A stretch of 64,000 bases of DNA from Isoetes taiwanensis (lineage: Eukaryota > Streptophyta > Lycopodiopsida > Isoetales > Isoetaceae): positions 9,852,572-9,916,571 of the forward strand of contig JAJEKV010000005.1 in NCBI GenBank assembly GCA_021234155.1. The letters run 5' to 3'. Shown here one piece after another: positions 1 through 55,301 of the stretch (its first letter is position 1; the number at the start of each line of letters is the position of its first letter). The notes beneath the pieces are model-generated. The model was not told the DNA's origin and did no database searches. It saw nothing but the letters and a program-made list of their open reading frames with translations. The position numbers were made by a program, and so were the translations under genes.

Positions 1-148
1 AATTGATTCTAAGCACGCTTTTTACAAACCAGAGACCCCATAGCCTTTGAAGTCCCAAAACTCTAAACCAAAGGTGTGCTCTCGATCAGCGATTTCATCC
101 CCAAATTGATTCTAAGCACGCTTTACGTACCAGACCCCATAGCATGCC
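1..148 (+). repeat. two tandem copies of a ~103-bp unit at the LINE 5' side
   Basis: The motif AATTGATTCTAAGCACGC starts at 1 and again at 104. Each copy is followed by a similar ACCAGA-CCCCATAGC stretch. The unit is about 103 bp. It could be a repeated LINE 5' untranslated monomer, but the window edge cuts it off and prevents proof. Confidence 0.55.
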
Positions 149-1899
149 ATACATACCGGAAAACTAAGGCGTAGGGCCGCCACGGTAAACCCGGCCCCCG
201 CCAAACCATCATGGGAGAGTCATCTCCGCGAAGAAGGAGGCTCGCTAAGGCTAAGGTCTCGGCCACGGGCCAGCCCCAAATGGAAGGGATTGATTGCTCG
301 CATCATTACTGTGAACTCCCGGCCCGCCGAGAATTCAGAGCTTACCGCCAAGCCGGGCGTGGAGGCTACCAGCGCCCGTGATTGAGGTTAATAGCGTTCA
401 CCGGCCGCATGGCAAAGGGAGATGGAGTCCCTGCGAACCCATGTGCTCGTAAGGCACCTGGGTGGTTTGAAGAACCCACACCACAGTTCCTCAAGACCCG
501 CATACGTTACGTGAAGATGGACTTGGCTCCGCACACTTCGAATCCAAGCAACAGCCGTGCAGATACCATCGACATAAAGTGCCCGCTTAGGCTCATTGTG
601 GTTCACTCACTCGATGACAATGAGAGGGAGCTGCAATGCACGAGACAATGGTCACCGTTCCCTGGCTTCACCAGCTTTCATAGCCACCACCATATACCTG
701 GAGCGCAGTCAGCTTCTGCGCATAGCCGCCATTGTGCTCAAATTTTCGTAGTATGATCGAAAGCAAAGAAGCCCAACTCGACGCAAATGTTTCGAAAGTA
801 TCACATCACCCATTCCGTGAGTTGCGTACCATTCATAGACAGGCTGTGGTCTCCCTATCGAGGTTCAGTCACCGCAATGCTGCGCATGTGATGCGCCAAG
901 TAGCAAAGAAAGCCCGCAAGAGCTGATCTCGACCAATAGTATCGAGGACGCCGCCTTCGCATCAAGCACCGCGAACCCCCGCAAGATGTACGTACCGCAC
1001 GGTGAAGTCGACCTTGATCACAGCCGGTGATCAAGCCACCCCATCGCCATCTCTCAAACACTTCACCACTACCACCTAACACGCCCCGCCTCGCCCACCT
1101 TTTGACCCGCAGTCGCTAACCTGTGAGCTGCATCAGAGCCGGCCAATCCGTAGTCCGAGGTACGCCGTGAAGAGGAAGGGAGAGTTCACCACAACATCCG
1201 AACACACATTCTCGACGGATGACATCTCGCCAGCTTCACATTTCCCCGAAAGTATTCGGCCATGGGGCTCACGTTGTAACCGCGATTGTCATATTCATAT
1301 GGCGACGCGAAAGGTGGATGCCATATTGCGCCATGGCAAGATGTCAAGGACGCCCTCAGACGTGGACCGACTCAATCTTCGCATTACCAGAGGCGCACGC
1401 AGACAGAGCTTGTCACCGTAGATATCCGCCACCAAGGTGCCGCAGATTGGTTCGCGTGATGCACATTTTCGCCAAACAAGCATCAAATGGGCCAGAGGAC
1501 CCCGCGAAATTTCAATCGCAATGGAACGTGGCCCCGCTTCGCCTCTACCGCTAGCCCCCTTCTCCTCGCCCTACTCCCTTCGCCCCCACGCACTCCATTC
1601 ACCATTAGCGTCAGCCCGCTTCCATCTAATTTCCTTCATCAAGGACAGCCTCCTCAACTCCACATGGCAGCGCATATGATCTCATCTTTCCCCATGGAGA
1701 CATGGGAGCATGCCGCACGCTACCCGGACCGTTGCTCAACATTTCTATTCTTCAATGCCCTGCATTGTGACAGTAGGGGTCATGGTGGGGTTGCTTGCTA
1801 CTACCGGACAACCTTAAGTACATTCGGGTCACCCTCCGTATGACGTATTGCACAACCGGTAATTTGTGGGTCTGTGGCATAATACCAAGGCAACCCTTT

Positions 1900-2110
1900 T
1901 TTTCCGGGTCACTGTTATTTCCTTCACGCAGAGAGCACCTTCTATCGCAGCCCACTGATGCGGATAGGATGGACCTTATGTCGATTCATATGATGACATA
2001 CAGAGCACAAACAAATGGGTAGGTCGCCCGGGGATTTCAATGCACCTGACAGAGTAGAGTAGCCCATGAAACTTGACTCTCACGACGATGTCCTATTGCC
2101 TACGCCTCGC
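1900..2110 (+). pseudogene. LINE endonuclease remnant
   Basis: The codons at 2030-2044 read GDFNA, the conserved strand and catalytic-site motif of apurinic-endonuclease-like domains, in which the Asp and Asn help bind metal and phosphate. The surrounding frame is broken, so only a fragment is readable. The position 1.6 kb upstream of reverse-transcriptase motif A fits the usual order, endonuclease before reverse transcriptase. The domain limits given are approximate. Confidence 0.5.
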
Positions 2111-2211
2111 AGAGGCACCGCCAATGCAGGATCTGGATGATAGCCGCTTCACTCGCCATGCATAGCTTGCCTCAAGGAGCGAGACATTTTCGACTTGATA
2201 ATTCTGTAATG

Positions 2212-2531
2212 GGGTAAAAGCATGTTAGGGTGTCCCTTTAAAAGTATTATTTAGTGACCAAAAGTATTCTAAAAAGGTACCTGTGGACTGGTAATCGGGT
2301 CCTCGTGGTAATATCCCAAAGGTACATTCTAGAACTTTTATATATATTTTGGTCTCCTGCAGAAAGTATCATCTTTAATCTTAACTTTGAATATTAATGC
2401 TGCCCCTGACTTTTATTTTGATATTTGTACTAGTTTCTTAATGAAAATAAAAATGAGAAAGTACCCGGGCCTGGCACGGTGTATGTACTTTTGCAGTTCC
2501 AAAAGTGGTACACCCTAACATGCTTTTACCC
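2212..2531. mobile_element. MITE with 22-bp terminal inverted repeats and AATG target duplication
   Basis: The left end begins GGGTAAAAGCATGTTAGG at 2212. The right end, ending at 2531, is its exact reverse complement over 22 bp. The 4-bp AATG at 2208-2211 is repeated at 2532-2535, as expected for a target-site duplication. The 320-bp interior is AT-rich and has no coding frame, so this is a non-autonomous DNA transposon. Removing it and one AATG rejoins LINE sequence, so it arrived after the LINE. The 22-bp perfect ends suggest a fairly young insertion. I cannot assign a superfamily from a 4-bp duplication and GGG termini alone. Confidence 0.85.
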
Positions 2532-3433
2532 AATGGCCTCGTCACAAGGGTCTCACGTGCACCGCGTAATGCAAATAACCGGGGAGGTCTAGTGTAGTGG
2601 ACGGCGGTGCTCAGAGTTCGCAAGATGGCGGTCTCATCGGGCCAAGCTTCCAAGGGCACCGACAGCCGATGAGGAGGTCGACTCGTATCACTCCTAATTT
2701 TATTTGGACATGGTCGGGTAAGCTAACTCCCCACTATGCCAGCCCTTCGCCTATCCCTCGCCTGCGACCGGATTATGAGCAAAGGTAGATTACGCCGAGA
2801 TGCTCATGGACGCCAAAGAATTCTCATGGACTCCCCACACTTGAGCAGCCAGGATGCATCTGGCCTGACTGAAGCTATTACGGATGCAAATGGACAGTGT
2901 TTTGGCACTTCTCCCTCCCCCTCGCTGGCCGCCAGTGGACAGCAACCTTTCGCAGAACTCCCAAGTGGTTTGATGCGCTGCGTAAAGAACGCAAGCGCCT
3001 CCGCCACGCTCGATCCGTGTACCCGCCAGGTGTTAATCGCGACGCATCAGCCCCATCCGGCGCGAGACAAAGCACGGCATCTGCCGTGCATAAGGGGAGA
3101 TGTTTGGTCACTGACACTCATCCTCGAACCTTTTGGCGAGTGCTTCAAGGCCAGCCCAGCCTATGGACATCACACCCGCAAGTTGGGAATAGTACTTGGC
3201 GCTACCTCTATGACCCACCGGATGCGACGCCTACACTTCTTCTGGCCAGATGGCCCCCATTGGTTCTCGCTGGAGGAGGATGTTGTATAGGGCCTTAAAA
3301 ATCCATCGCCTAATGGGCGTTCACCCCATGGTATGCAGTCGAAGCTACTTCCAATGGGTGTATCGCGCCATCCTCACTACCCCCTGCTCAACAGAGCATT
3401 GCAGAAGGTTTCCATAATGGGACCATAAGTAGG

Positions 3434-4010
3434 TTGTCCTCATTCACAAGGCGGCGACTTTACACCGTCCTACCACTACCGGACGACATGGTCGGGCTCA
3501 AGATTTGCCAAACCGCTATCGCATTCCTCGAAGCAAGAGTTGACCACCAAGCGAGGCGCAGATGTGCGAGCCCTCACAATAAGCAAGCTTTAGACCCCGC
3601 CACTCAACGGGTTGACTATATCTTTACATCAGCGGCACTGATTGAAGATACCAAACCATCGCGTGACTTGTATTGCCGCTTGTGGACTTCGCGAAAGCTT
3701 TCGATACCTACCCCCGAGAAGCTATGGGCTAGGATCAAGGCCAATTGGGCCGCTACCGCCGTGCGTAATGCCATATACAGCCGTATGAGAGTTGTTTCGG
3801 GCGTGATGCAGCCGACGCGCCAAGCATTCACTCGCCGCAGTATCGGAAGGCCCCGCTTGTGGCTGCCCCTCCTCACTCAACACTTTGGCCTCTACATTGG
3901 GATCGGGCCATTAAAGCCCTCGCCATCGGCATGGGGGGATGGCATGTACTTTTGCACTAGGTCATCCGCCTATCTATGCTGACGATGTTGACCTTCCTCG
4001 CCCACACCCC
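3434..4010 (+). pseudogene. LINE reverse-transcriptase core remnant
   Basis: Reading across at least three frames gives the fingers and palm of a LINE reverse transcriptase. VDYIFTSAALIEDTKPSRD is followed directly by the motif-A stretch VDFAKAFDTYPRE (3682-3720), then by FGLYIG and finally YADDVDL (3975-3995). The two Asp of YADD are metal-binding catalytic residues in this family. The longest single frame runs from 3434 to 3982 but leaves the true frame between motifs A and C, so no functional enzyme is encoded. The copy at 53130-55200 belongs to a related element. Confidence 0.7.
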
Positions 4011-5080
4011 GTATTTCATACGCTGTAAATTTCATCTAGATGTCCTGTGACATTCCCCGCCGCTACGTACATGCGCTGCGACCGCCAAGTCCGTGGTGTA
4101 TTTTCATATCTCTTCAATACCACCCTTACGCCCTTTGCACTCACATATCAAGGATATTCAGGAGGTCACCACCTACAAGTACCTAGTGGAGTTCCTCCTC
4201 GCCACTAGAGACGCCCATCCGGCTATGGATGATGCTAGCCGAAGGCTTTATGTCATGCGTAACAACAATCACCAGTAGCTCTATGATTGGGGCCATCAAC
4301 ACATCCGCTTCCGGCTTCTGGCCTGTTCCTCGTTTTTGTATGGGTCGAGAATGTATCCGGCCACTTTCATGACATCGGGAATGACTTGGAGCTAAAAAGT
4401 GGCGCATTTTGGCATGCTAATTTTGCGAAACCTTCAAATTCCCCATCGACTTCGCTGCAGAAATCGATTCTTACGCCATTTCAAATGGGTACTCTTGATG
4501 CATTACATCGCCTACTTCTCGTGAAGTGGTTAATGGTGGTGATGCTCTCTATCTCGCCGCGACCTGGCTTACACTGTAGCAATGGCCCACAGCTCGTAAT
4601 TGCTGGAGGTAAGAGACGCTGGTTCGCCGATGAACGCGGCAGGAGCACGATGCGCGTGGACACATGAGGCCGATCGTGATAAACCGCTGGAATACCGACG
4701 CTGTTTCCTTTGGTGCTTCCCGGACCCCTACTTCCATTACAAGGAACACATCAACTCATAATTCTAACCCACAAATTTACCTCGCTCCTACCGCTCCTCA
4801 AAAGCGCAGTTCATTGCCTCCATTCAAGACAGTACCTACCCATCTCCGCGATTGACGGCGTGGATTTGGGAGCCCCGCCAGATGTGCTTTGTCGGGCGCT
4901 GATGAACACACCGCCAAGACGCGTTCGGGGTCGCATATCTGTGAGGTAATCGGATCTCAGAGCTCCACCTTTGCCCCTCGCCGTCAGCTGGATCGTGCAC
5001 TATGGGTACCTGACATGAGTGTATATATTTGTGTGTTTTGCATTTCGTGATGTTGGAACAGCTTTGTCTAGGTGCTGATT

Positions 5081-5140
5081 GTTGCCACGCTTTTCCCTAA
5101 AAACCCCGTGGATTTTTAATCCGGTAGTAATCCGCTTGTC
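5081..5140 (+). other. structured LINE 3' end (predicted RNA stem-loop)
   Basis: This is one of four copies of a TTTTCC...AAAACCCC...GG.TTTTTAATCCGGTAGTAAT pattern in the window. A left flank close to GATTGTTGCC can pair with GGTAGTAATC on the right (7 of 10). The inner part can pair as CCCCGTGG or as TTTTCC against the A-rich run. The LINE tail follows about 65 bp downstream. Reverse transcriptases of several LINE clades recognise a 3' stem-loop in their own RNA; that role is inferred here. Confidence 0.55.
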
Positions 5141-5219
5141 AGCGCTTTGTATCGGGTCTCATAGACCGATTGGTCTCCTCGCGGGATCGAGTAAAAATAT
5201 CTTCCTTCCTTCCTCCTTA

Positions 5220-7200
5220 CTCCACAAACCATCTTAAATTATAATTTCATTTCATTGTACTCAAGAAGTCGGATTTGCCAAGTCAGCCATGAATAAAGAG
5301 CATGTGGTATAATTCTTAAAAGGGACAAATGCATTCTCGATGGCGTATCGAGATAAATTATACATGAGGATTTATAGCTGGTAGTCACATACCCAATAGG
5401 TCTAGAATTGCAACTACTTAACCGCCAGATAGAGGCTAGAGGTTAGACGCCCCTACAAAATATACCTGCGATCCACCGCACACTCTCAGAGGAAATCCCC
5501 ACCGGCCCTCCGACCGCATCTGCTCCCTCCGCCTATCCCGCGACTCGATCATCACCTAGTGCGGAAGGGGACACGGCGGTGTCTTTAGCGCTCTTCCTAT
5601 GGGCTCCTATCAATGAAGCATAAACAACGTAATCCAGCAATAACAACACATCATATATTACCCTCTAAGGGTAGTCTATCCACATATCCATAGCTAGCAA
5701 AGAAGATAAACATATGCCATAAAACATGAGAGCTCCTACCCATGGTTCAATTCATGGGGAGGTTGACCGACCGGGCTAGGCCTCAAGATATTTTTCGCAC
5801 TGAAGTCATAACAATGGCGGGCCGGGCTATAGACAATGGCTAGGGTTGATTCACTCCATCCTCTCCCTCGCGTGCATATTTTGCAGATGGCTAGATCAAG
5901 CTCGCATGACTCTAGCCTTCCGGATACGCAATCCCACATCACCCATCGACTACTCCAGTTGCATCTCCTCGGGTCCGGCCGGTGCGGTGAACGGTTGCAT
6001 CTCCCCTTCCTGGCCCAGAGGTTCCACGACGCCAGAGAATCGCGGGCGCATTAACAATGACTGCACCCTCGAATTTAACCCCCAAAAATAAGAGCCAAGC
6101 CAACACTTGCAACTCTTGAGAGGCGTGGCGACACCATTGCCCCTGTGGGTGTTCCGACCCATGCCCTCGGCCACACGGCACGACCATAAGCTCCAGCCCA
6201 CTATGGGATCCCCTCAGAAGCTCCCCCGCCCCAGTGGATCCTCCCTCCCATCAGCCCCAGTAGTACTGAAGTCACATCATAGCCTATAGCCCGGGATGGG
6301 TTCCTGTATGCACAAAGCCGCGATAATAATAGAACTAAGGGCTCCGTGACTAGGAGCATACTACGAATGGCTACTTCAGGTCTATACCCCTTCCAATACA
6401 AGAGGAGCAAACATGATCAACCAACATCACATAACATCATATCATGATAATCATCATAAGAACATCTTAACCTAATCATACATATCTAACTTACAGCTAG
6501 GGTTCCTTTGGATTAGGGTTCAAGATGTTGAACAAGGGTTCTAGGATGGCTCTACCGGGTGTGTTTATGCTGATATGCGCCATTTTCCTACCGGGCTACA
6601 GCTTCTTTTAGCACTTTATTTTCGCTTTTTTTACACTCCATGTCCGCGGATCGGCAAGAACCCCGACGAGCCGTCACCATAAAAGTTGAAGGGCAAAGTT
6701 GACGGCCTGGAGAAGGCCACCGTAACAGAAAGTTTTGGGCTAACTTCGCAAAGAAGGTCAATCCATGATGAATCAATGATTAATTCTCCTGTCACAGCTA
6801 ATGGACGGGAATCGTCCCACCCATCGCTGCAAAAGATCTTCAATGAATTTGGAAATAATTCATGTTTTGAGTTTACAAAACTCGCTTTTTTGATCTGAAT
6901 TCAAGTACTTGAAGCATGGCTGTAATTCAAAACCAATTCCGCAGGTAACAAGCTCCCTTGCATTTCTAAATTTTTTAAGGACCAAATCCAGAACTCGGTT
7001 TTGCGTGAGTTACTTTTTGCAAGAACACTCCATTGAGTTTTCAAAGAATCGGAAACTTCGGGATGAGGGAAAGAATCCAAGAAGTATCAAATGGGCGATG
7101 TTCCGCGGGCCGATTTTTTATGTGTCCGAAAACCTATGCCCAAACCGCAAGATACACACCGTTAATCAAGCCCCAGCCAAGACAAAGACTCGACGATAGA
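5220..7200. other. no supportable gene; mixed composition
   Basis: From 5220 to about 5450 the DNA is AT-rich flank. From 5450 to 6250 it is GC-richer, with short pyrimidine-rich stretches. No frame shows a recognised domain, and open frames on both strands are below about 100 codons. Nothing here can be named. Confidence 0.4.
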
Positions 7201-25440: not shown

Positions 25441-25679
25441 ATATGGAGCCCAAAAGGTGTTTTATAAAGATGTGACAGTCAGAAAGAAGACTAAGGGCCT
25501 GAGATACATATTTGACGAATGTTTGCTTTCTAGAAAAAATTTCAGCTGCAGCTCTCTGCAATGTACACAGTATAAATTCCAAAAATGATTGCTTATGAAA
25601 GAATGGTTCTCTGTACATTGTGTTGCTCTTGCAATTTTGTCATAGCCATAGCCAAGAAAAATTAGCTCTTGCAATTTGG

Positions 25680-28600
25680 TCATAAATGCTCCGAGATAAG
25701 AGGGCCTCTTATCTCGGAGAGGGTATGCAAAATTTCCCGCATACTTGGTCTGTTGACAGGCTCCCCACTGGTGCATAGCAGGGCTAACTTCAGTAGAATC
25801 ACCAGTTCTTCTTGTGTAGACTCATGGGCTATAACAGGATCGAGGATCTCATATACAGTCTGTGTTTGTTCCAGAGTAATCTTTACCCACATCTCACCTC
25901 TCAATGTCTTCACAAACTAGGATCAGCAGGGAATTTGCCTGTGAGGGTTCACCGAAATTTTACCCCACCATGCGTAAGCATCAATTTTCTCGTTCCTTTC
26001 ATTGTCATAGCGAGACCTCTGTCCTTAAAAAATTATTCTTCGTTTAGCGGACAAGATAAAGAAATTCGAGATAGTTGAAATTTACCTAGACAATATATAT
26101 CCAAAAGTGCCAACAATGCTTGACATAGATAAACCGTTCTTGTCAATCAGCTTTGCTATGCCAAAATCAGTGATGTGTGGTACCATATCAGAGTCCAGGA
26201 GAATGTTGCTGGATTTGATGTCTCTATGAACAATCTGGGGTCTGGCATCATGGTGCAAGTATGTCAGTCCCTGAGCAATCGCAATGCAATCTTTTACGTA
26301 TGCACTGTTTCCAATCAAGAATCGATTATTTGCTTGGGGTGCAGAGCATCATTTAAGTTTCCTCCTTCAAGGTAATCAAGCACGATGTAACCATTTTCTT
26401 CTCGAGTCATGAATCCAATAATTTTAGCTAGATTTCTATGCTTCATCTTGCTTAAAATCTCTATCTCCCTCTCAAATGTTGTTGCCACTGACTGACTTGA
26501 TAGCAACAATTGTTTTACTGCAAGAACCCGTCCAGAACTTGTAGTTACTTTATGTACAACACCATGACCACCTTTTCCAATAATATTGTCCTCTGTCAGG
26601 TTTTGTGTTGCTTCCACTACTTCTTCTACTGACAAATACCTCCTGTCTGCAAAAAGACGAATGGATTTTTGCCTTTTATGAGATGCGGTTCTTTTGTACA
26701 ATAGTAAAAGAAGTCCAAGGACTCCAAAACAGAATGCCACTGCTCCAAGGACAATCCCAGCGATGGCACCAAAACTGATTCTGATGCCCTTTTTAGTTTC
26801 CTTAGCATTATCTGCATTGCAAGATACATTTGAAATGCAAGTCCTGGGATTCCCCATAAATGATTCTACTTAGTGGCAACATTCTGAAGTTTTTCCATGA
26901 TTGAGGAACACTTCTGTCAGTTCATTAGATGACATTGACAGATATCAGAGACCGCATATCAGATAAACTTTCAGGAATAGCACCTAATTTGTTATATGAA
27001 TGAATCCTTTCTCGAGCTTTTGTATTCAGGGGCTTCCGCTCTGCTGATATACTGCCATCGAGCTCATTTAAGCTTAGGTTCAACATCATGCTTAGTTGGC
27101 CTAGCTTCCCAAACTCAGCAGGTATGTGGCGCATAATTTGTTTCTTCTTCCAATCTTGGCTCACGAAGTCTCTGAAACAGAAAGAAATAAAAGGGGATTT
27201 CTCCTTCAGACTATTCCTTCTGGATTCAACTGCTCCAAGGAACTCAGATTTTGTATTTGGACGGATATTTCAGCCTTCAAAAGTTGATAAGATCTAGAGA
27301 AGTTATATTTTTGCAGTAAGCAATTTCTGCTGGAGAATAGAACCATTCAGCTTATTATCAGAAAGTCAAGGATTACCAACTTGGAAAGACACTTAAACTA
27401 CTTGGGGCGGTCCGTAAAGCAAGTTGTTTTTAAACTTTAAATGGCTCAAGTTCCAGCATAATCCAGATCCCATGGAACTAATATGACCTTCTGATTTATT
27501 AAACCAGCAAAATCTAGTAAATATAGACTTTAGATGAGTTCAAAGCCTACAGGAATGGCGCCATTTAGAGGTTATTTGCCAGTTGCAAACATACGTACTT
27601 TTGCACCCTGCTAAGTCTTCTGGGATGGTGCCTGATAGCTGATTTCCTTCCATGTCCAAACTCCAGAGATGTCCAGAAGCACATAAAAATGGAGGAATCT
27701 TTCCTGTCAAACTGTTGTGATTAAAGTCAACCAGAGAGAAATTATTCAGCTTGCCTAATTCCTGAGGAATATCACCTTGCAGATTGTTGTTGTCAAGATA
27801 CAGTTCCTTCAAATGTGTGAGATTGCAGAACTGTATGGGTATGGAGCCATTGAGCTTGTTAGTCCGCAGGTTCATCACAATGATGTTACTTAAATTTCCA
27901 ATATCTCCGTGAATAGGACCTGTAAAGGCATTCTGATCTAATCTCAAAATTTCAAGCCTTGATAACCTACCTAACTCCCTAGGAATACCACCGCTGAGCT
28001 GATTTTCCTGAAGAAACACAGAAACTAAACTTTTGGCATTCAAAATCTCTGATGGGATGTTGCCACTCAAGTTATTGGAATAAAGGGATACCCTGTCAAT
28101 TTGAGACAATAATCCTAGCTCGGAAGGGATATTTCCTGTAAGGTTGTTGTTTCCTAGGGACAACTCTTGAAGCAGGCTGCAATTTCCCAATTCAGAGGGT
28201 ATTGAACCATTCAACCCATTGAAAGACAGATCAAGTATCGATAGAGAAGTGCAATTACCAAGCTTTGGAGGAATGCCACCTTGCAGCTGGTTACGAGACA
28301 AGTAGAGTATTTGCAAATTTTGAAGCTCACCAAGTGATGCTGGAATGTTGGAAGAGAATGAGTTGCTATTAAGATAAAGTATTTCCAGCGCGCCGCAGCT
28401 CCCGAGTTGTGAAGGGATTGGTCCAGTGAGGGAGTTGTAGTCCAATGCCAAATACGTTAGATATGCAAGCTCATGTGGGAAGTCAATCTGACCAGATAGT
28501 TTCTCATTCCAACCCAGATCCAAGTGTCGAAGCTCTTTCAGCTTAAATATGTCAGATGGAATTCCTTCAGACAGATAGTTGGCACGAAGAGACAAATATG

Positions 28601-29072
28601 TGAGCTGGTACAATCTTCCAATCCCTTGATGAATTGGCCCTGTCAGCAAGTTGAAGCCCAGATCAAGATATTCAAGTTTAGTGCAATTTTCAAGTTCTGG
28701 TGGTATGATGCTGCTGAAACTATTTTGACTAAGATCCAACCTTTTAAGCTTTGTAAGATTGCCTATATGGGGCGCAATATTCCCTCCCAATGATAAACTG
28801 GACAGATTGAGAGTTTGGACCCTTAAACCATCTGCAGTGCAGGAAATATGAAGCCATGAGCAGGGACTAGAATCAGAGGCATTCCAAGAATCAAGCATTT
28901 TCTGAGTGTCTATGATATAGGATTTCAGAGAAATAAGTGCTTCTCCATCTTGGGAGAGCTTGCAATTGACTAGAAATGATGGAAGAGTTACTGCAATGAG
29001 AAAGATTCTTGTCATCAAGTCGTTTATGGACAAGGCCGCCATATTGGGCTGTCTTTTTGATAAATCCACCAA
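25680..29072 (-). pseudogene. LRR receptor-like kinase pseudogene (copy 1)
   Basis: This is the paralog of the intact kinase at 55302-58652. The signal peptide and about the first 485 residues (LRR cap and most repeats) form one open frame at 27540-29072, which then shifts just after the residues TIPEDLAGCKS. The last LRRs are scattered over frames at about 26925-27500. The transmembrane segment and the kinase N-lobe (GKGGHGVVHKV, AVKQLL) are readable at 26315-26857. The C-lobe core (VHRDIKSSNILL, DFGIAKLI) is at 26082-26318. GYIAP is corrupted to GYILSR at the exon end, and the segment holding DVYAYG is lost or scrambled. The distal end (VKITLEQTQTVYEILDPVI) is at 25680-25913. At least four frame breaks make a full receptor impossible. 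The long open 5' part could still give a truncated, secreted LRR protein, but that is speculation. Confidence 0.85.
27540..29072 (-). CDS. open LRR ectodomain part of the copy-1 pseudogene (510 codons)
   Basis: The frame starts with an ATG eight codons upstream of the position equivalent to the copy-2 start. It carries a hydrophobic signal segment (IFLIAVTLPSFLVNC), an LRR N-terminal cap (CSWLHISCTADG) and about 17 plant-type LRRs of the LxxNxLxGxIPxxLG form. It then leaves the frame and stops after about 20 unrelated residues. It has no membrane anchor and no kinase. It may be only the undecayed half of the pseudogene. If transcribed, it would encode a secreted LRR fragment. Confidence 0.4.
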   Translation of the reverse strand: MVDLSKRQPNMAALSINDLMTRIFLIAVTLPSFLVNCKLSQDGEALISLKSYIIDTQKMLDSWNASDSSPCSWLHISCTADGLRVQTLNLSSLSLGGNIAPHIGNLTKLKRLDLSQNSFSSIIPPELENCTKLEYLDLGFNLLTGPIHQGIGRLYQLTYLSLRANYLSEGIPSDIFKLKELRHLDLGWNEKLSGQIDFPHELAYLTYLALDYNSLTGPIPSQLGSCGALEILYLNSNSFSSNIPASLGELQNLQILYLSRNQLQGGIPPKLGNCTSLSILDLSFNGLNGSIPSELGNCSLLQELSLGNNNLTGNIPSELGLLSQIDRVSLYSNNLSGNIPSEILNAKSLVSVFLQENQLSGGIPRELGRLSRLEILRLDQNAFTGPIHGDIGNLSNIIVMNLRTNKLNGSIPIQFCNLTHLKELYLDNNNLQGDIPQELGKLNNFSLVDFNHNSLTGKIPPFLCASGHLWSLDMEGNQLSGTIPEDLAGCKSTYVCNWQITSKWRHSCRL

Positions 29073-29264
29073 TCACACTATTTTCTATCTTGTGCTGCAT
29101 GTTTAAATAAACTGCTTATCAAGGACTAGGTCAGGTGAACTAATATTGTATATTGTATGAGCATCAATAAACTAAGACGATTTGGACTGTTTCCACTCAG
29201 AATATCAACTCGCATTAACTCGCTTGTCAAAGACACGAGCATATACTATACTAAAATATATAAA

Positions 29265-29651
29265 AAACCCGATCTGCCTTGCATGTGTTTTGCTGTATCT
29301 CTTTTGGCGGTAAGGTGAGTGTCTGAGACTCACTAAATACATTAGATAATATTCTAACTGTTTGACTCAATAAGTCATTTGGACAATATTTTAAGTATTC
29401 TCCAAATGGTAATGCTCTTAAATATAATTCTGATGTCATCTAGTTGATCCTCAGTTTTTAGGCCAAGTGTTACTTGCATGTGTATGCTGTATCTTTTGGC
29501 AATGGGTGGTGATACCAGACTCCTAAATACATTAGACAATATTCTAACTATTTGACTCAATAAGTCATTTGGACAATATTTTAAGTATTCTCCAAATGAT
29601 GATAACACTGATATAATTCCTGATGTCATCTAGCTGATCCTCCAGTTTTCG
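29265..29651. repeat. two ~190-bp tandem units upstream of the copy-1 kinase
   Basis: Each unit begins near TTGCATGTGT, contains CTTTTGGC with CTAAATACATTAGA, then TTTGACTCAATAAGTCATTT, and ends near TGATGTCATCTAG. The same pair lies upstream of copy 2 (58841-59220), so the tandem predates the segmental duplication. Because both genes are on the minus strand, these repeats lie within about 600 bp of the start codon, in the promoter region. Confidence 0.75.
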
Positions 29652-30218
29652 TTGTTAGTAACAGAAATGACAATCTAGAAGTACTCATAAAACCATTGAT
29701 GGTCTAGTTGTGAATGACGTTCTTGGCATTTCTTTGATATGAATTATTCTAGAAAAGTATTTGAAGTCAATGAGCTAAAATGGCCTAGATTGTCTAATCA
29801 AAATCAACTTGCATTAACTAGAACATCCCAGTTGGAGCGTACTAATATAAAAATCAGGTCAAGCTTTACATGTGCTCAGGCAGGTGGTATGCCAAATGGA
29901 ATAAATCTTTATCTAAATAGTTATAGTCAATAAGCTAAATCACAAAGATATACCTAGGACCCATGCTCCACGACAATACTGAAAAATCTAAACAAATATA
30001 GGGAATGTACAAATGTATGCGCCAATCCTTAGGAATATAGAAGGTGCAATACACAACAATCAAGAGCTTCCCAATCCCTAAGAATATAAAAGGTGCAATA
30101 CACAATGGTCATGAGCTTCCCTGGATTCATATCCGGGCTACACCACAGGACTAAATAATCAGAAGTAGACCATACCTAAGCTATACCCCAAGGCTAAATA
30201 ACTAGTGGTAGGACATGC

Positions 30219-30425
30219 TTGGGGCAAAGGGTGGGTTGCTCTCTTTATACGAAGGGTTCCTACTTGTATATGTCAATTGCTTATCTTTTGGCAATGGGTG
30301 GTGATGCACACTCACTAAATAATTGGGGAAAGGGGTGGGTTGCTTGTTTATGGGAAGGGTTACTACTTGTATATTGTCAATTGCTTATCTTTTGCCAATG
30401 GGTGGTGATGCAGACAATATTCTAA
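30219..30425. repeat. ~115-bp tandem units with TTTTGGCAATGGGTGGTGATG
   Basis: Two units share GGGTGGGTTGCT, a GAAGGGTT.CTACTTGTATA stretch, CAATTGCTTATCTTTTG and AATGGGTGGTGATGCA. Their core resembles part of the 190-bp units at 29265-29651, so one repeat family occupies the upstream region. The same arrangement occurs in copy 2 near 59800-60006. Confidence 0.65.
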
Positions 30426-30689
30426 CTATTTGACTCAGTGAATCATTTAGACAATATTCTAACTATTTTTCAAATGATGATAACGTTGATATAGTTCCTA
30501 ATGGTTATCAAGCTGATGCTCCAATTTTGGATGTTAGTAACGGAAATGACAATGTGGAAATAACTCATAAAAACATTGTGAATATCATCTTAACAACTTT
30601 GCCGATGAGATTATTCCAGAAAATGTATACAGAAGATTGTCCTCTGATATGCATAACTAGCGTATGGGTTCGTACTAAAACATCTTCTT

Positions 30690-31270
30690 TTTTATTTTGG
30701 GATGAAGTTGGGGTGTCCCGGGTCTGCGTGTTATGCGGCGTTCAGCACTAAATCTTGCGGACCACCTTTCTACGGGCGGGCTAGCATCATTGATGGCCAG
30801 TTTTTTAGCGGCCAAAGTGTTGAATCTTTGCCATCTCTAGCTTAATGATGCGACCATCCTTCCTTTAATCACCTTTCTGCCCACGATTTATGGCACTCCA
30901 AGTTCTCTCCGCGATTTTTGGCCCTCAAACTTGAAAGTTTGGAGTGGGTTTTGAGTTTTGTATAAATTTGTAAGCAAAACCATGATAGCATGAGCGCAAA
31001 TAAACCCTTGTTCTTTTCTGGGGCTCCCATCTACGAACCAAGGCTTCTAAGATCTCTGCGGACAAGCTGGGAAAAGGTTTGTTGGGCAGGGGCGGTTCTG
31101 CCATGTTAGTAAACCTCAGCGTGTCCCTACCATTTTCTTCATATCTTTGCCCTTTAAGGTCTTTTAGTTTAAAGACTCCAATCTTTGTCTTGGATAGAGT
31201 CAATGTGCTTGTGGGGGATTTGGACAAGCACATTTATAAGATGCCAAATAGACTTTTGCATTATACCTAA
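30690..31270. other. block shared by both duplication copies, function unknown
   Basis: This block matches 60260-60850 in copy 2. On the minus strand both contain similar short peptides, for example an SCYHGFA segment and a piece with FSAERR (copy 1) or ISAERR (copy 2). On the + strand copy 1 has a short open frame at 31079-31270. Neither strand gives a frame conserved along its length between paralogs. It may be a fragment of an old gene or repeat. Confidence 0.3.
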
Positions 31271-31299
31271 AATTTCTTTCTTCATATATAAAACTCTTT

Positions 31300-32610
31300 G
31301 GAGGCTGGAGCATTTTATTGTAGTTCGATGAACTGCACTTAGCTGAAGTGATTGCAGAGCCTAATCTTTTAGAAACCTGAAAATGACAAGTCATCCTCTA
31401 TCATCTATCATATTCAGCGTTAAACACGGCATCTAGATGTAAGTCGGTCAACAATTTCGGATATATTGCCATTGCTAAGCGGGAAATAGAATTGTGATTA
31501 AAGCGATGTTTTCATCAGTTACATCGCTAAACTTCTGCATTTGCCAAGAACCAAGTTGTGAAGGTAAATGGATAATTTTAGGTGTATATATGGCATTTGT
31601 CAAGATCAAGATTTTGTTTAGTATCTGAGGAATAAAGGAGCCTTGGATGCAGGAGCCTTTGGAGCTTCTCTCGGGGGAAATTGGGTATGTGAATGGGACT
31701 TGGAATATGAAGAAGTGAAGCAAGGCAGTATCAAGCGATTTAGGCGGTGGGCAATATTAGATGCAAGTCGAGGTCAATGAAAATTTAATACTTAAGAGTG
31801 GTTATATGGGTAAGATTAGACTTGTACTCTAATGATGTATATGTTGGATTGGATTGACAAGGGGAGAATTGTGCAATGCATAGGTGAGCTTCTTTAGATT
31901 TGCCATCCGATTGTACAAAGCAGAAGGTCTTCACTATCCATTGTTTTTGGCGTAACCCATGGTGGAATAGGATGCAAGCACAAGTTTGCATCTAAGTGAA
32001 TTTCTCTGCCATGGCTAATTTTCCTAATTGAAGCTGTAGCATTCATTTGATGATTAGATCATTGAAAATTGTTACACAAACATAGGGTTTAGGTTAGGGT
32101 TATAGAGTATACACATGCATTAGAAGAATAGAGCGTTATGAATAGTTTGCTATACAACTTTCTATATCTTTTGTAGACTCATACAGCATATGACTAAAAC
32201 ATTTGCTGTGTAAGCACACTACTCTTATTCTCTATTTTGCATCTTTTTAATATTTTTGAAGATTTTTAAAATTTTTGAAAAAAGCTTTAAGCGTATTTCA
32301 TATAAAATCGTTAAAATCTTTAAAATTCTTAAAATCATAAATCCTTAGATTGTGCTTTTTAAATCCAAATATATGATATTCTTGAACTTATTTATCTTTG
32401 TATTCTCCAACCTCTATAATAATGTTTTTCCTAAACTTTCTTGAGAGTTGCATGGCAAAAGCGACTATGATATCTTTGTACTTGAACTTAATAGTTTCTA
32501 ATAGCGGCATAAACTTTTGATTTACTTGTTGGCATGCTCGTCTTATAATTTGTAGCAAAATGTGCATTTTGACAATAGCAAATATGTCAATAAAGCATTG
32601 CAAAGGAATA
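31300..32610. other. shared intergenic DNA of the duplication, no gene seen
   Basis: The stretch corresponds to 60890-62210 in copy 2. It is AT-rich, with many 1-5 bp indels between copies, and no frame is conserved. Confidence 0.45.
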
Positions 32611-32643: not shown

Positions 32644-32692
32644 TCAAAACGAGCATGCATGCATGCATTGCATGCATCGCATGCGTTTGGGC
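32644..32692. repeat. GCATGC palindromic array, left arm
   Basis: Repeated GCATGCATGCAT leads to CGCATGCG. It is matched in reverse by the arrays near 33708-33757 and 34098-34133. It marks the outer part of the foldback arms. Confidence 0.75.
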
Positions 32693-32969
32693 CGTTCGAT
32701 GAGTTAGACATTTGCTACTTATTCTGATTCTTCATCGACATTTATGGTAGCTTCTTCTTCTCTCGTGATGCCTTATTCTCTTTGAACCCACCCTCCCCTT
32801 TCTTTTGTTTTACTATATTTTGTACAGGATTGCATTTGTCATGTTTTCCACTGGGTGGGTGATGCTTTTTCCATCCGGTTTGGATCAAAAAGCGGCGCCA
32901 TCGTTTTGACTTCTCCATGCAGCGGAGTTTTGGGAAGCGATTACGCCTTACGTTTAGCCAAGCGCAGAA

Positions 32970-33022
32970 CTTATCACTAGGAGTTTTCCTCGAAAAGTAG
33001 GAATTTTTAATCCGGTGATAAG
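32970..33022 (+). other. LINE-type 3' stem-loop in the left foldback arm
   Basis: TTATCACTAGG at the left pairs with CCGGTGATAA at the right. The inside keeps TTTTCCT, AAAA and TTTTTAATCC in the same order as the LINE ends at 5081-5140 and 55040-55100. The outer stem bases differ from those of the LINEs yet remain paired. Confidence 0.55.
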
Positions 33023-33338
33023 CTTTGGCAGGTATCAACACTCATCTATTAGCATTGTATTTGTTTTTAGGGTCCAAATGTATAAATTGGATTTTCCCTT
33101 TATTTTTTAAGTGGGTAGTTAGCGTGTGATAGGCTATCCTTGTCCTCATTAATAGAAATGTGGGGATAGATAAAGGAAGCCTATCTATCATCTCAACTGA
33201 TTTCTACAATGGTGGGCGGTGGATAGCGCACACATAGAACTACCCACGAAAAATAAAGGAAAAATCCAATTATAACATTTGGACCCCAAAAACAAATACA
33301 ATGCTAATAGATGAGTAAGGCGATGTGTACTAAGCTAT

Positions 33339-33390
33339 CAAGGATTAAAACCCGCCCTTTGGGTTTTAGGAAAAACCTAGTGATAAGCCT
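33339..33390 (-). other. LINE-type 3' stem-loop in the right foldback arm (inverted)
   Basis: Read on the minus strand, this has TTATCACTAGG, TTTTTCCT, AAAACCC, AAAGGGCGGG, TTTTAATCC and TGATAGC. It preserves the outer TATCA/TGATA pairing and both inner hairpins. It faces the copy at 32970-33022. Confidence 0.55.
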
Positions 33391-34622
33391 TACGGCGAGA
33401 TAGACAAGCGTAAAAAGCGAATACCCAAAAACAGCGCGGAAATCAAAGCGGATGGCGGCTAAGCCAACACGGCGCATCACCAACAACAAGCGAGAAACAT
33501 ACCAAGAATAGCATCACCCGATTGGGTGGAAAAAAGCATCACCTTAGGAGTGGAAAAACTTGTCATGAGAACTTGTACGATATAGTAAACAAAGAAAGGG
33601 GAGGGTGGGTTCAAAGGCCAAAGATGCTGAAGAAAAGAAGCGCCCGATAAAATGTGATGAAGAACTGCGCAATAAGTAGCAGCCCATCACGGCGAGCGGC
33701 CCCAAAGCGCATGCGATGCATGCATGCGGCGCTGTATGCATGCATGCATGCTCAAATAACGAGCAAGAATGCCGATTAAGCTACGAATCCTGACAACATT
33801 CTTACTAGCATTTCGCATGAAACCAACAAAGCGCTGAGAATACCAAAGGACTTCCTTAACAAACTAGGATGAGGGCGAAGGTCGCAGGATGAAGGCTAAA
33901 AAGGCCGAAAGGGCCAGCCGGGAAAACAGCGCCAAATTAGCCAAACAGGCGGGGAAAGAAGCCCCTCCCACACTTGCGGGGACAAATCAAAAGAGAATAA
34001 AGATGCTGGCGAGGAAGCGGAGTAAAATATACCGATGAAGAACTTCTGCGCAATAAGTAATAGCCCATCGACGAAACTGACCCAAAAGCGTCACGTGCAT
34101 GCATGCGACACATGCAATGCATGCATGCATGCTTCGTCTTGAAGCAAGAATCGCAGATTAAACTCTGGCGAATGCGACAACGTCTTACTGCTAAACTCGC
34201 ATAAAACCAACAAGCGCCATGCAAATCATAAAAATTCTTTAAAAGCATTGAGATTTATAAATTGCACAAAAATAAGCAGGTCTTTTAACAACATTGTTTC
34301 CAATTTTGGGAGGCTAACAAATTTGAAGGAATATAGTTTGTCAGCTCTCCCTCCGGAAATGGGACTTCAAGTTGTACAACATGCGACATGTCTTAGAAAA
34401 TTTGTATTAAGAAATTAAGTGTCTTTATGCCCGGCCGAGAGAAATGGACAGCAACTTCAAGATCAAGAGCAAAATGAGGATGCTCTTGGAAATTGACCGT
34501 AGTCTAGAAGACACACACTTGTGTTAGAGATTGGAAATCATAGAAAGTTGAGATCAACCATTAACATTAAGGGCTACTTACATCTAGTTAGACGATTGCC
34601 TAATGATATAATGTCGTTAGAT

Positions 34623-34859: not shown

Positions 34860-37840
34860 GTGTATTAGGAATGTTAAAGGCTTTACAATTCCTAATCTAT
34901 CATTATTCAAGGGCACTCAAATGAGGCAAAGATAACATAGGAAGATGTGAAGAGAGGGTGCAATTTAGAAATTTACATCAATCTTTAGCATGATGATAAG
35001 CTGAATTGTAAATCGTGGTTGTCACACTTTCAATCAAGAGTCCTAGTCGTGTGTCTCAGACGGGCGGCTCTTAATCATTTTGGATGATCATGGTAGCCTT
35101 GTAGACTTGATGTCATTTTGTGATGGGACATGGAAATTCATTTTTCCCTTGTTGCTTGCATACATTCATGGGCTGCAACCTTTGGATGTTGTTTCTTTTG
35201 TATCTTTCAATGCGGTAGCTTTTCAAGCATATGGGGTTGTATATATGGTTAGGAAAGGCTGAGGTTAGGGCCTAAGAGGAGGAGATTGTTGAGCTAGTCT
35301 CACTATCCATTAAGATAGGATTGACATCAAGCAACACAAGGCTAGATTGTTAGTGAAATTGGTATTTTGCCTTTATATTACGGAAAGAGTGAGATTAGGC
35401 TTGAAGGTTGTAGGTTTGTTAACCATGTCGCTGGCTTTACAGTGCATCTGGCCGAGGGAAGATGTGCAGATGGCAATGCCATGGGACTTGATGGCAACAA
35501 CCTTGATGAAGCATGTGTCTTGAATGTGCAAATGCATTTGGAAGGACCACAGGAGATTGTTCATCGATCAAAAGCCGGAGTTGGAAAATGTGATGTTGGA
35601 TATGCCTGTCGAGAACCTAAACATATGCAACATCAAATTGACAATGTGAAGGGCATGCATTGGATGCTCAAAGAGAAAAAGCCAGGAAAAAGGGCGGTTC
35701 GGGCTACACCTTAATAGGTATATATTTTACAAGGAATGGCCTATTATATACTTAGAAAAAAATCATATGTGGTACACCACCTTAAATGTATTATTGCTAG
35801 TCAGAAGAGGTTTTAGAGGAAGAACCTTGACACTAATATGTATCTTTGAGAAATTGTACAATGATACATTATGATGCAGCACCCAATCTCGCTGCGATAT
35901 CACGAGGGCATGGCGGGTGCATGCATTCGCGGTGGAATAGATTCTAGCACATCCCTTTGGGGTTGTGGTGAGTAGCACATGGTCTGTTGGTTAAGGAAGC
36001 GGGATCAACTCGGCCTGAGAGGGTGGATATGAGTGATGCCATGCAATCTTGCAAGTATGACATTCACCTTCAATAATGCCATGGTGGAAACAGCGGCATA
36101 TATTATTCTATCCTTCGCCTCCCGATCCCACTTGCCTACACACCAATTTAGAGGCAATGTGCATCTGTGCAAGTGAAGCTATCAATGCCACCTGCACTTT
36201 TTAGTGGCAAATGTATATGGAGGTATACTTTGTGGACATGGGGTTGATGAAGTTGGTAGTGTATTGTCTTAATATGTTCAAGACCACACTGGCATCCAGG
36301 CTTAGCGATGAAAGAAAGTATCAAGGTATGAGTGCGTAATGGCGATCCCTCTTTAATTTCAACACAGTATGCATTTGCGCTCTTGCACATATCTTGGGCA
36401 CAAGTCTCTCTCCACTTTGGGCTTTCGTCTCTCCTTGAGGCATTCTTGGAGCCCACATCCGCAGTATAAGCAAGGTGAGTTGATTGGTGCCCATATGACT
36501 ATCTTCAAAGTAGATAATGTATGGCAATCAGAGTCTTGTGCTTTGTAAAGTAAGAATCATGTCTCTTGTAAAGTATGGACTATGGATTTTACCTCAGTAC
36601 TTTGAGCTTCATTAAGGCTTTTCCTATTTCCAGGTGGCTAGGGTATGAGCCGGGCAGGAGTTACCGACTCTTTACAAAAGAGCGAGTTCTACCAAAACCC
36701 CTAAGCAGCATGAGATATGGGTCGATCGCCATAGCTGCATCTTTGTATTTATTTACTCGCATTGCATACAATGCCTTCCAACACAACTTGATAGAAATAC
36801 TAATACGTAGTGCAGGGAAACTCGTCCAAGTACTTGCAGGTGATTACACACCACATTTTGGTCGATAAGTGAAGAAAGGAACGCCGTGCGCCATAGAAGA
36901 TGAGACAAGCGATACCTCAATCTTAACCAAATTGGCCCACATTCCAATGGCTCGGTAGAGAGTATCAAGGACATGTAGATGTTGCTCCATGTCTTCAAGG
37001 ATCTTCCAATTGATTAATGTAGAGGCCAAACGACATTGAAAGAAGGCGAGCATCCACAGCGGACCTATACTATTGTTGGCGGGCTTTTTACGCCGATGTC
37101 ATTCCCACACGGCCGGAGTCTCATACAACATAGTACATACTATATTTTTGCAAACTATAGAGGCTCTCAATTGTCTTCTTTCCTACAACTTTTACGTAAT
37201 GTCCCACTGCTCATATCTGATGTTCCCATGGTATAGAGCAGGAGTTCATCCCTCGTTCCAAGCGTACATGTACGAGGAGCCATCCACCCAACATCCGAGA
37301 TCATACAACCAACAGGACTGTGAGTGAGATGGATGTGTCATTCATCTAAATAAGCCGCTGCTGGCCCAAATCGTTGGGCAAGGGAGAGTTACTAACTTGG
37401 GACCCAAATTGGGGTTTGTACCCCATTTGCCCCAATTGGTGGGAGGTTGGTGGAGGAGGAATTTCTTGTTCCACCCATGTTCCCGGTAGGAAGGATGGAG
37501 TACCCGGCGAATAGTGGACCTAGCTATGATCCGTTAGATGCGTAGATAGCTTGGATTCATGATAATCTCATACGCCTTTAATTCATCTTGATATGTTATT
37601 TGAACCAAAATGGTATGCGGTTATTGACCCGGTAGCATCATTTGCACCTTCTCTTGTTCCTTGAATGTATAATTCTCTGCAAAATCCCTTTCACAGGGCC
37701 ACGATAAATGCTGGGGATTCTCTAGGAAGCTCCTTGAAACATTTTACTGCTATATATTATAATATTTATTGTGTAAGGAAGTGTTGGACCCAGCCCTAAT
37801 TTAGGCCCAGTTTGATGAAATCAATGGAAGAGATGATGCA
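34860..37840. other. no recognised gene; one unrecognised open frame
   Basis: A + strand frame at 35367-35714 (115 codons) is rich in Gly, Cys and His (GNAMGLDGNNLDEACVL in the middle) but matches nothing I know. It has a non-ATG start as drawn. Minus-strand frames at 36148-36527 and 36753-37053 are likewise short and unrecognised. I see no repeat termini. Confidence 0.3.
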
Positions 37841-49897: not shown

Positions 49898-50349
49898 ACA
49901 AAGGAGACGTAACTTCTTTTGCCCACATCGATTCCGGACATTTAAGAATAAAAATGTCCCCATAAAGAAAAATCAAATCGATCCATGGTTTGAGCACTAC
50001 AATTGTCAAAGTCTTATACTTTGTAAAGAAACATTTCAAAATAGTCATATTATGACACCTTAGTAGTAAGATTTCCAAACTCCCCACTTGAGCACTTTCA
50101 ATACCACCAACCAATAGCGCTGATTTTCCTTAAGCATCCTTATGAATTAGGCCTTGTGATAAATTTCTTGTCTACACATATATAATTGTGTTTCCTTAGA
50201 TTCGATTCTTTTATACCTTTGATATTTTAGTAGACACATACCCAGTTTTTCACAGGTACAGCAGCCGTCAAAATTTTTAAAGGCGGTTGTAGATATACTT
50301 GTGGAAGCCACAGCAAAATCTTGGTTTGGGCATGGAAGCGACCCCAAAC

Positions 50350-51930: not shown

Positions 51931-51932
51931 AA

Positions 51933-53080: not shown

Positions 53081-53322
53081 ATACATATTTGACGAATGTT
53101 TGCCTTCTAGAAAAATTTAAATTTGTAGCTCTTGTGATTTGGATGGGATCTGCAGTGAGCTTCTCAAATTGGGCGGGCCCCAATGAGTCTTGCGGTTCTC
53201 ACGGCACTCTTCAGCGGGCATTGCAAGAAGGCTTCCCCCCGCCTTTGGACTACCCCCGGTAGAGTTGTGCCCATATACAAAGCGGGGGACCCCCGCGGCC
53301 CGACCAACTATCATTTACCATT

Positions 53323-53535
53323 ATGGTCGATTACATCTTTGCCAAGTTGTTTGTAGGGATTCTTGAAGCCGGCCCGACACTTTGGAAGGCGGAAGGATGG
53401 AGAAGTCTGCGGGCTCTCAGCGGTGACTTCGCCCAGGCATTCTACTATTGGCCATATCTTCACTCTGCGAACCTCATAGAGGATAGCGGAATCAACGCCC
53501 GAGGAACTGTCTTTGTTGCTTTATGGATTTCATAA
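53323..53535 (+). pseudogene. LINE reverse-transcriptase N-terminal part
   Basis: VDYIFAKLFVGILEAGP is the LINE pattern leading into the fingers of the enzyme. The frame shifts before motif A (FMDFIKAFD at 53520-53546). Confidence 0.6.
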
Positions 53536-53769
53536 AGGCTTTTGACCGGTGCCTCGGGATAAGTTGTGGGAACCCGATTGAGGCGGTAGGGGACCCCGTC
53601 GACTGAGAATGCTATATCACCAGGACTATCACGAGGCTTGCTTTCAAATTGCGTCTCACACTGCTCCGGAGGAGCCCGTTGTTAGTAACATTAGAGATGC
53701 GCGGTACGCCCTCTGTATCCCCGGCAGCTCTTACGGCTTGTACATTGACGGCTAGAAGAATGGCTAAAT

Positions 53770-54066
53770 TTGAAACTGCGGGGAGGGCTGATTGATGCAC
53801 CACGCATAATCCGGCAACTCATATATGCGGATGATGTTGACTGCTTCGCATATACGAGGACGCCGCTAGCGCCACACGGATGCTTTGGACACTACGCCAA
53901 TTCCTTTGGCATGAGAGTTAACAGCCCGAAACTGAGAATGTGGCCCCAGAAATTCCCATCATCCGGCACCCACTTCCCTCATTCAACACGAGGTGTAGTG
54001 GAGGTGGCTCGATCTTATAAGTATTTGAGCATTGAGTTTTCTTGCCTTGGCAGGATGCATCCGTGA
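53770..54066 (+). pseudogene. LINE reverse-transcriptase palm with YADDVD
   Basis: The open frame contains QLIYADDVDCFAYT, in which YADD is the metal-binding catalytic motif, followed by FGMRVNSPKLRMWP, the usual segment after motif C. It belongs to the same broken ORF as 53323-53535 and 54304-54672. Confidence 0.7.
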
Positions 54067-54303
54067 GATTCACAGTCTCACTTTGCAATTTTGCGACCAC
54101 ATATGCAATAAAACAACGGTCACAAAGCGGTTTGTATGCATAATGGGGGTCACCGAGCACACTTGTTGAGAGCCTTGGTTGAGCGATCCTCCTACATGGG
54201 GCCTTTGAGAGATTAATGAGGGGCAGTGATATACTCTGCAGGAAGAATCGAAGCGTCAGAGGCGCTGCGGCAGGAGTGAAATCCACGGTCCCATGTCGAG
54301 ATC

Positions 54304-54672
54304 TTGCTCCGAGAGCAGGCTTCCCTTCCATTACGAGCTGCGGTAGAGCGTCACATTATTTACTTCGAGGAGAAGGTGGTGGCTATGGATGAAGCCCGGC
54401 TGCCCAACCTTGCTTTGGCGATGGCGATGGGCCGCAAGCAAGCCAGTGGTTCTCAGCGATGGAATGTGCGAGCACACGAGATGTGGACGAGTGCATACAC
54501 AGAAGAAACCTTGGCCCGATTTGAAGCGATCTTGGATGCTTGCTTCATGGCCAAGCTTTGGGATCACGAGGAGGCCACATCACGTATCAAGGTAGCAAAT
54601 TGCTCGGCAATGAGGTTAATCCCATGCTCACCGAGGGGCCCACACACTACTGCGCACCACCTACCCACGTAG
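54304..54672 (+). pseudogene. LINE ORF C-terminal region
   Basis: This 122-codon frame lies downstream of the reverse transcriptase in the same element. It has a hydrophobic, Ala/Leu-rich helix (LALAMAMGRKQ) and CFMAKLWDHEE, and it resembles the thumb or C-terminal part of LINE proteins only by position. The function is not visible. Confidence 0.4.
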
Positions 54673-55039
54673 CCTTGAGGGTGCTTCCCGTTCATGAGGT
54701 CACACCACCTCGCATTGAGACATGGAGATGGATTGAGGGCAGCGGGAGGGAGCCAGTCTGTCGATCTTTGTCAACTGGTGCCATTGAGGATGAAAGTCAA
54801 GCCTCCCGGGCTTTATCCAGTACGAAGCGTATCCGGACTCGATATGCTCGGTTAGTTGTGCCCCATCGAGGCCTGCGCCAGGCCTCACGAGCCGCGACCT
54901 CTGTAGGCTTGTTGGGATAAATCTGCTCCGGGAGGTAATGGATCTAGCGAGATTTCGATTATGCCCCACGGCCCGGGCAGTAGCCTCGGGCTGTGCTTGT
55001 GATTATGTATATAATGCATTATGTAGAAAAGCATCATAT

Positions 55040-55100
55040 TGCTACTAAGGTTTTCCCAAGAAAACCCTTGGGCGGGGTTTTAATCTAGTAGTAATGCGCT
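55040..55100 (+). other. structured LINE 3' end (predicted RNA stem-loop)
   Basis: ATTGCTACTA at the left pairs with TAGTAGTAAT at the right. Inside, GGTTTTC can pair with GAAAACC, or alternatively AAAACCC with GGGGTTTT; the two inner stems share the AAAACC strand and exclude each other. The same layout is seen at 5081-5140 and in the foldback arms. Confidence 0.65.
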
Positions 55101-55301
55101 TTCTTTGCTTTCTCGCACTTTTTGTACTTGGAGTCCACATTAGGCGATTGTTCTCAGGTGAACTGATAAAATAAGTATTCTATTCTATTCTTTCTGATAT
55201 CTATGATATAAATTCCAAAAATTGGTTCTCTGTACATTGTGTTGCTCTTGCAATTTTGTCATGCATGCCATAGCCAAGAAAAATTATCTCTTGCAATTTG
55301 G

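Follow-up and report, generated by a model that had tools for sequence, protein, structure and literature searches.

In a 64,000-nucleotide stretch of DNA from the lycophyte Isoetes taiwanensis (contig JAJEKV010000005.1; the whole stretch is hereafter termed the window), a short hairpin-forming motif recurs, and the locus raises the questions of whether this hairpin is maintained as an RNA structure, in which elements it resides, and what it may do there. A sequence-only reading had proposed four copies with a common order of blocks, quoting outer-stem arms for two of them. All four copies are present in that order, with positions shifted by a few bases (Table 1), and they are the only matches of the covariance model R1 in the window at E ≤ 1; because all four were included in the training set of R1, their E-values are not independent. 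The quoted arms are present as well, although TTATCACTAG/CCGGTGATAA holds one A.C non-pair, the A of which, judged from other copies, is a conserved unpaired A. Copy 4 has a damaged right arm, TTGATAGC, as opposed to GGTGATAAGC in relatives. A search of Rfam gave no match in the window at the gathering score; below that score, four matches (E = 0.92–1.9) were located at 55000–55200.

Table 1. Coordinates of the hairpin copies in the window and of the elements that carry them.
Feature	Position	Strand	Details	Basis
Copy 1, family A	5077..5133	+	outer stem GATTGTTGCC/GGTAGTAATC, unpaired A, U4 and U5 tracts	covariance-model match, family-A relatives
Copy 2, family B	55037..55097	+	outer stem ATTGCTACTA/TAGTAGTAAT	covariance-model match; 40 scored family-B matches
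Copy 3, family D	32969..33023	+	outer stem CTTATCACT/GGTGATAAG	covariance-model match
Copy 4, family D	33331..33390 (model match 33339-33388)	-	right arm damaged	
Tail-to-tail inverted pair of family-D repeats with copies 3 and 4	32651..33753	.	central palindrome 33040-33316	
Decayed LINE, family A, ending in copy 1	2668..5221	+	start possibly as early as 1078	blastn against genomic copies
Reverse-transcriptase remnant of the copy-1 LINE	3559..4356	+		tblastn with RVT_1 segments of L017
A5 tract, then (TTCC)n 3′ tail of the copy-1 LINE	5193..5213	+		sequence, tally of copies
Decayed LINE ending in copy 2	53218..55190	+		blastn pieces, tblastn reverse-transcriptase remnants 53432-53749 and 53803-54183
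A4 tract, then TATTC-repeat 3′ tail of the copy-2 LINE	55168..55190	+		sequence, tally of copies

Host elements of the hairpin

Relatives of the window copies were sought in the genome assembly (1,658,258,908 bases in 1110 contigs), where family A gave 700 candidates (40 scored), family B 572 (40 scored, 20 fetched), and family G, a LINE family with a TATTC tail, 956 (40 scored, 20 fetched); R1 matched all 40 fetched loci of families B and G. The reverse-transcriptase domain RVT_1 is clear in L017 (family A) and L112 (family G), on the strand of the motif and upstream of it; it was not found in L113, the second family-G stretch scanned, and Pfam returned no family for the read-through frames of 1–5000, 50101–55100, L009, and L019. 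By sequence, the solved chain nearest to the LINE reverse transcriptase is a 'Reverse transcriptase-like protein' (E = 0.005); R2 retrotransposon proteins come next, the best of them at E = 0.14. Families A and G match at the DNA level over about 120 bp from the motif onward, in a comparison that extended only about 140 bp upstream of the G motif. The LINE ends consist of TTCC or TATTC repeats with no visible poly(A), and the motif lies, as judged by eye, roughly 60–80 nt upstream of this terminal tail in families A, B, and G. The run of A that precedes the tail repeat most commonly has a length of 5 in family A (18 of 31 copies, with no run found in 6) and in family G (14 of 21, none found in 4), and a length of 4 in family B (19 of 21, none found in 1).

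Several further observations concern these LINEs and their surroundings. Between the motif and the A tract or tail repeats (about 5140–5190 and 55100–55165), a second conserved hairpin is discernible by eye, reading GGGTCC-CATA-GRCC-NNTT-GGTC-TCC-GTGGAC in families A, B, and G; this tail-proximal hairpin is a candidate that could be recognized by the LINE reverse transcriptase. A lone reverse-transcriptase remnant on the minus strand (36742–36996; tblastn) resembles the same LINE group. In L009 and other family-A LINEs, the coding parts contain many small indels, and the A+T-rich 3′ parts look well conserved. Copy 2 sits just upstream of the second unit of a direct duplication of approximately 7 kb (25598–32605 and 55217–62218; 88% identical), which contains LRR and LRR-kinase open reading frames.

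Copies 3 and 4 are situated in a different kind of element. They are inverted copies of each other that flank a palindrome within a repeat of about 1 kb, the outer arms of the pair spanning 32651–32870 and 33531–33753; since they are mutually inverted and the motif lies inside the repeat, they are neither independent copies nor LINE ends. The search with copy 3 gave 383 candidates and 40 scored matches and returned 30 loci, the window among them, which share the repeat of about 1 kb with L022, some of them partially. In those full copies elsewhere that were measured, the sequence runs about 190–205 bp beyond the motif to the repeat's own end. Among the 12 copies compared, 11 have TCRCATCG as their first bases in the alignment; in L038, TCGCATCG directly precedes this start. 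The sequence CCCATTCTAGA occurs in every one of the 12, either at the aligned end or no more than about 20 bases from it. Long inverted arms, as in the tail-to-tail pair of the window, occur in at least six other fetched loci (L024, L034, L037, L045, L047, and L050), and L022 contains a partial head-to-tail dimer with an exact junction. Inspection by eye suggested insertion at A^T with exact head-to-tail junctions and showed no target-site duplication, features that would fit a possible rolling-circle-like element; the repeat does not look like a 5′-truncated LINE copy. Palindromic target sites received no significant support, with a mean inverted-flank score of 3.11 over 19 loci versus 2.72 ± 0.24 after shuffling (shuffle maximum, 3.53). 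As judged by eye, one more stretch, GTATT..GGGTCC..ATTGG, is common to family D and the LINE ends.

The third host type was encountered in family E, for which a search gave 52 candidates and 42 matches; 24 of these matches form 12 same-strand pairs that are 7.40–7.58 kb apart. In the two copies compared, the motif is contained within direct repeats of at least 1178 bp (96.2% identity), about 350 bp from the repeat start. Between the repeats lie gag, reverse-transcriptase, RNase H, and integrase domains on the strand of the motif, so that family E is an LTR retrotransposon, the domain order of which we take to be Gypsy-like. The hosts of the motif in this one genome are, then, LINEs, a non-LINE repeat (family D), and the LTRs of a retrotransposon (family E). 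The original placement of the motif at LINE 3′ ends holds for copies 1 and 2, which lie in decayed LINEs, and for families A and G; it fails for copies 3 and 4 in the non-LINE repeat and for family E in the LTRs. Occurrence away from the element 3′ end, which the sequence-only reading had itself named as evidence against its proposal, is what families D and E display.

Covariation of the outer stem

The outer stem was assessed in an alignment (A7) of 116 sequences, namely, 31 of family A, 21 of B, 2 of B′, 21 of G, 36 of D, 3 of D2, and 1 each of E and F, which were aligned with MAFFT without structure. These 116 represent the 121 model matches minus two overlapping-locus duplicates (L011:7555 and L006:1-66), two loci identical to L053 (L060 and L063), and the weak match L033:1004 (E = 0.93). 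Pairing was retained in 91.7% of 1131 outer-stem cells versus 77.4 ± 0.8% after shuffling. Compensatory cells, in which both sides have changed, numbered 201 versus 67.2 ± 11.7 in shuffled alignments and at most 30 when the stem was slid by 1–3 columns; these cells count sequences and not events, and the shuffles ignore relatedness, whereas the slid control keeps it. The covariation score amounted to 0.516 versus 0.282. The number of pairs with both sides changed, 7 of 10 versus 5.7 after shuffling, was reached by 73 of 500 shuffles and is not beyond chance; further pair types show a modest excess (20 versus 17.4 shuffled; 13 of 500). Pairing is absent at pair 6/76 from 25 sequences, and family G contributes 20 of these.

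The differences among families follow the same pattern. Between D2 and D, for instance, the outer stem changed from C-G to U-A and from A-U to G-C, with one G.U intermediate, and the different arms of families A, B, G, D, D2, E, and F probably reflect several independent compensation events. The outer stem is therefore established as a selected RNA structure. The sequence-only reading had interpreted its paired changes as those left by selection on RNA structure, and this interpretation was borne out when covariation was evaluated statistically over the 116 genomic copies.

U tracts, upper stem, and A tract

The inner part of the hairpin is less uniform in its predicted folding. Two non-overlapping, hand-picked sets were folded with RNAalifold without a supplied structure, one with 28 LINE copies (of the 73 in families A, B, and G) and the other with 16 copies of D, D2, E, and F (of 41). 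In both consensus folds, the U tracts are largely unpaired between the outer stem and the upper G-C stem; the LINE-set consensus has an upper stem of 2 pairs only and no G-C pairs just below the loop, and in the second consensus, 10 of the 16 copies have the final U of the 5′ tract paired within the top stem. An ENE has a U tract on each strand of an internal loop and G-C pairs adjoining this loop on both sides. The 5′ tract (U1) is 4–5 long in 109 and the 3′ tract (U2) 4–6 long in 101 of the 112 copies that could be parsed (of 116); by base identity only, 104 of the 112 allow a G-C pair immediately below the loop, 101 allow one immediately above it, and 96 allow both. ENEs are located near the 3′ end of the RNA or its poly(A) tail; at the level of the elements, the motif is close to the 3′ end in LINEs and about 350 bp from the LTR start in family E.

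Single-copy predictions differ among the families. The open fold with adjoining G-C pairs is the free minimum-energy structure in the family-A copies L070 (−30.6 kcal/mol) and L061 (−29.9 kcal/mol), and only in these two when the two best open folds each of families A, B, G, and D were compared. The share of the ensemble with fully open U tracts averages 12% in family G and 11% in A, compared with 2% in B and 1% in D; in family D, folds with paired U tracts are favored, pairing of the A tract with U2 (AAAA with UUUU) is common, and open folds cost about 4.5 kcal/mol on average. The mean expected numbers of A-U2 and U1-A pairs are 1.8 and 0.53 in D, 1.57 and 0.86 in B, 0.8 and 0.66 in A, and 0.11 and 0.07 in G, respectively. 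A permutation test of the upper stem, in which the family-A copy L070 was grouped under B, was not convincing (3.53 versus 3.42; 50 of 1000 permutations reach 3.53). The A tract has two columns that are at least 90% conserved over 116 copies; in family G, it is interrupted as AAACAA in 21 of 21 copies, with no matching change in the U2 run. The small loop, read by eye, is UUCG in A, GAA(A) in D, and UUUA in G. Overall, the folding models render an open U loop likely. The assembly was made with nanopore reads (PMC8566536); small indels in G+C-rich repeats, including those in the coding parts of family-A LINEs, may thus partly be assembly errors, and the inner hairpin should be read with corresponding caution.

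Candidate roles of the motif

With a probability of roughly 0.55, the motif is an ENE-like RNA-stability module common to the three element types, the triple helix being proposed by analogy. Such a module would comprise an outer stem of about 10 bp in which the sequence is free and the pairing is kept; a conserved unpaired A and 2–3 possible G-C pairs that would lead into an internal loop; a U4–5 tract on the 5′ side of this loop and a U4–6 tract followed by AAU on its 3′ side; and, above the loop, a stem rich in G-C, a bulge of A4, and a small hairpin. If the module works as known ENEs do, an A tract would be held between the two U tracts in a short U.A-U triple helix. This A tract would be the poly(A) tail or, for LINEs, perhaps the A4–A5 tract immediately ahead of the terminal repeats; the triple helix would then slow 3′-end decay of the transposon RNA. 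A-tract binding, triple-helix formation, and stabilization are all inferred from this likeness. U1 most often has a length of 5 in family A (25 of 31 copies) and in family G (15 of 21), and a length of 4 in family B, where it was found in 14 of the 20 copies that could be parsed and one copy could not be parsed; a U1 tract equal in length to the A run before the tail would suit an intramolecular triplex, the comparison comprising only three families. The conserved A4 within the hairpin is without a role in the simple ENE model. In a self-contained variant, which we consider doubtful, this A4 would lie between the U tracts (U-A-U) in an intramolecular U.A-U triple helix that opens for poly(A) or the LINE terminal A tract, and a poly(A)-sensing triplex switch would have been passed among the LINEs, the LTR retrotransposons, and further repeats of a lycophyte.

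Known systems provide partial counterparts to the ENE-like module. In the 3′ triple helix of MALAT1 and MENbeta, the place of poly(A) can be taken by an A-rich tract encoded close to the 3′ end, and the A4–A5 tract of families A, B, and G might similarly do so in a triplex that is putative here. ENEs in transposons are already known: Tycowski et al. reportedly described them in 2016 in transposon RNAs of plants and fungi, with U-rich loops said to be short enough for about five triples. The present motif shares with these the location in transposon RNAs, and its internal A4 bulge and LINE-encoded A tract may be distinctive. ENEs bind poly(A) in a U•A-U triple helix and occur in transposon RNAs (PMC12501189); the ENE of Arabidopsis Copia93/Evade forms such a helix through U-rich internal loops and adjacent G-C pairs, shields the RNA from deadenylation, and promotes Evade mobility (PMC12501189). 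The motif resembles it in having U-rich internal-loop tracts flanked by G-C pairs in a retrotransposon RNA. Evade, however, belongs to the Copia LTR elements and carries its four U tracts in a spacer before the LTR, and its ENE has a proven function (PMC12501189), whereas the motif has two U tracts, resides in LINEs and other hosts, and has a putative function. Among the matches listed by an open full-text literature search, nothing concerned ENEs in LINEs or lycophytes, which is weak evidence of absence.

Other explanations account for parts of these observations. The motif could be a stringent-type LINE 3′ hairpin, that is, a stem-loop recognized by the LINE reverse transcriptase for target-primed reverse transcription, which other elements copied from LINEs. 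Its position before the tail in families A, B, and G, the DNA match of A and G from the motif onward, and the stretch that family D shares with the LINE ends are in keeping with this, and a precedent exists in the monocot L1 lineage 1a and the maize and sorghum SINEs, in which a 3′-end hairpin exhibits compensatory stem changes (PMC3747384). That hairpin is likewise found at a plant LINE 3′ end and shared with non-autonomous elements; its loop is UCU, and CGAG follows the stem on the 3′ side (PMC3747384), both of which are absent by eye from families A, B, D, and G, where another sequence follows the right arm. Nevertheless, a stringent hairpin belongs at the 3′ end of every carrier, and here the motif lies well inside the D repeat and within the E LTRs, neither of which should need a LINE enzyme; moreover, the D-like D2 copies continue to differ from D on both sides of the stem, and the candidate tail-proximal hairpin could serve recognition instead. 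A LINE recognition hairpin by itself thus leaves the hosts D and E unexplained, and this explanation is judged unlikely; a double role in LINEs is possible. A LINE-only reading of the motif was ruled out by the D and E hosts.

An improbable alternative, which extends the two-state switch of the sequence-only reading, is that AAAACCC pairs with either the left or the right U tract and that the choice regulates translation against reverse transcription. In its favor, either pairing can form and is represented in the ensembles of single copies, and the two conserved A-tract columns would accord with it; however, the consensus folds of both hand-picked sets choose neither pairing, the interrupted A tract of family G hardly forms either, and no ligand or partner is known. 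Hitch-hiking, whereby all copies inherited one ancient hairpin that is now without function, is more improbable still. That all examined copies come from one genome, that the window LINEs are decayed, and that the flanks adjoining the motif in family D are also well conserved (0.91–0.99 per 12-base block) would fit neutrality, under which the differing yet paired outer stems of A, B, D, D2, E, F, and G are not expected; in 29 family-D copies, furthermore, conservation is 0.99 in the arms versus 0.75 in the inner hairpin.

If the ENE-like reading is true, one RNA-protection device with the same core sequence would serve three hosts in a single lycophyte genome: a group of LINEs, an LTR retrotransposon, and one more family of repeats. 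This would suggest that such RNA elements are modules able to pass from one transposon class to another and that LINEs with non-A repeat ends may encode their own A tract for the module; the motif families constitute natural compensatory mutants for a direct test.
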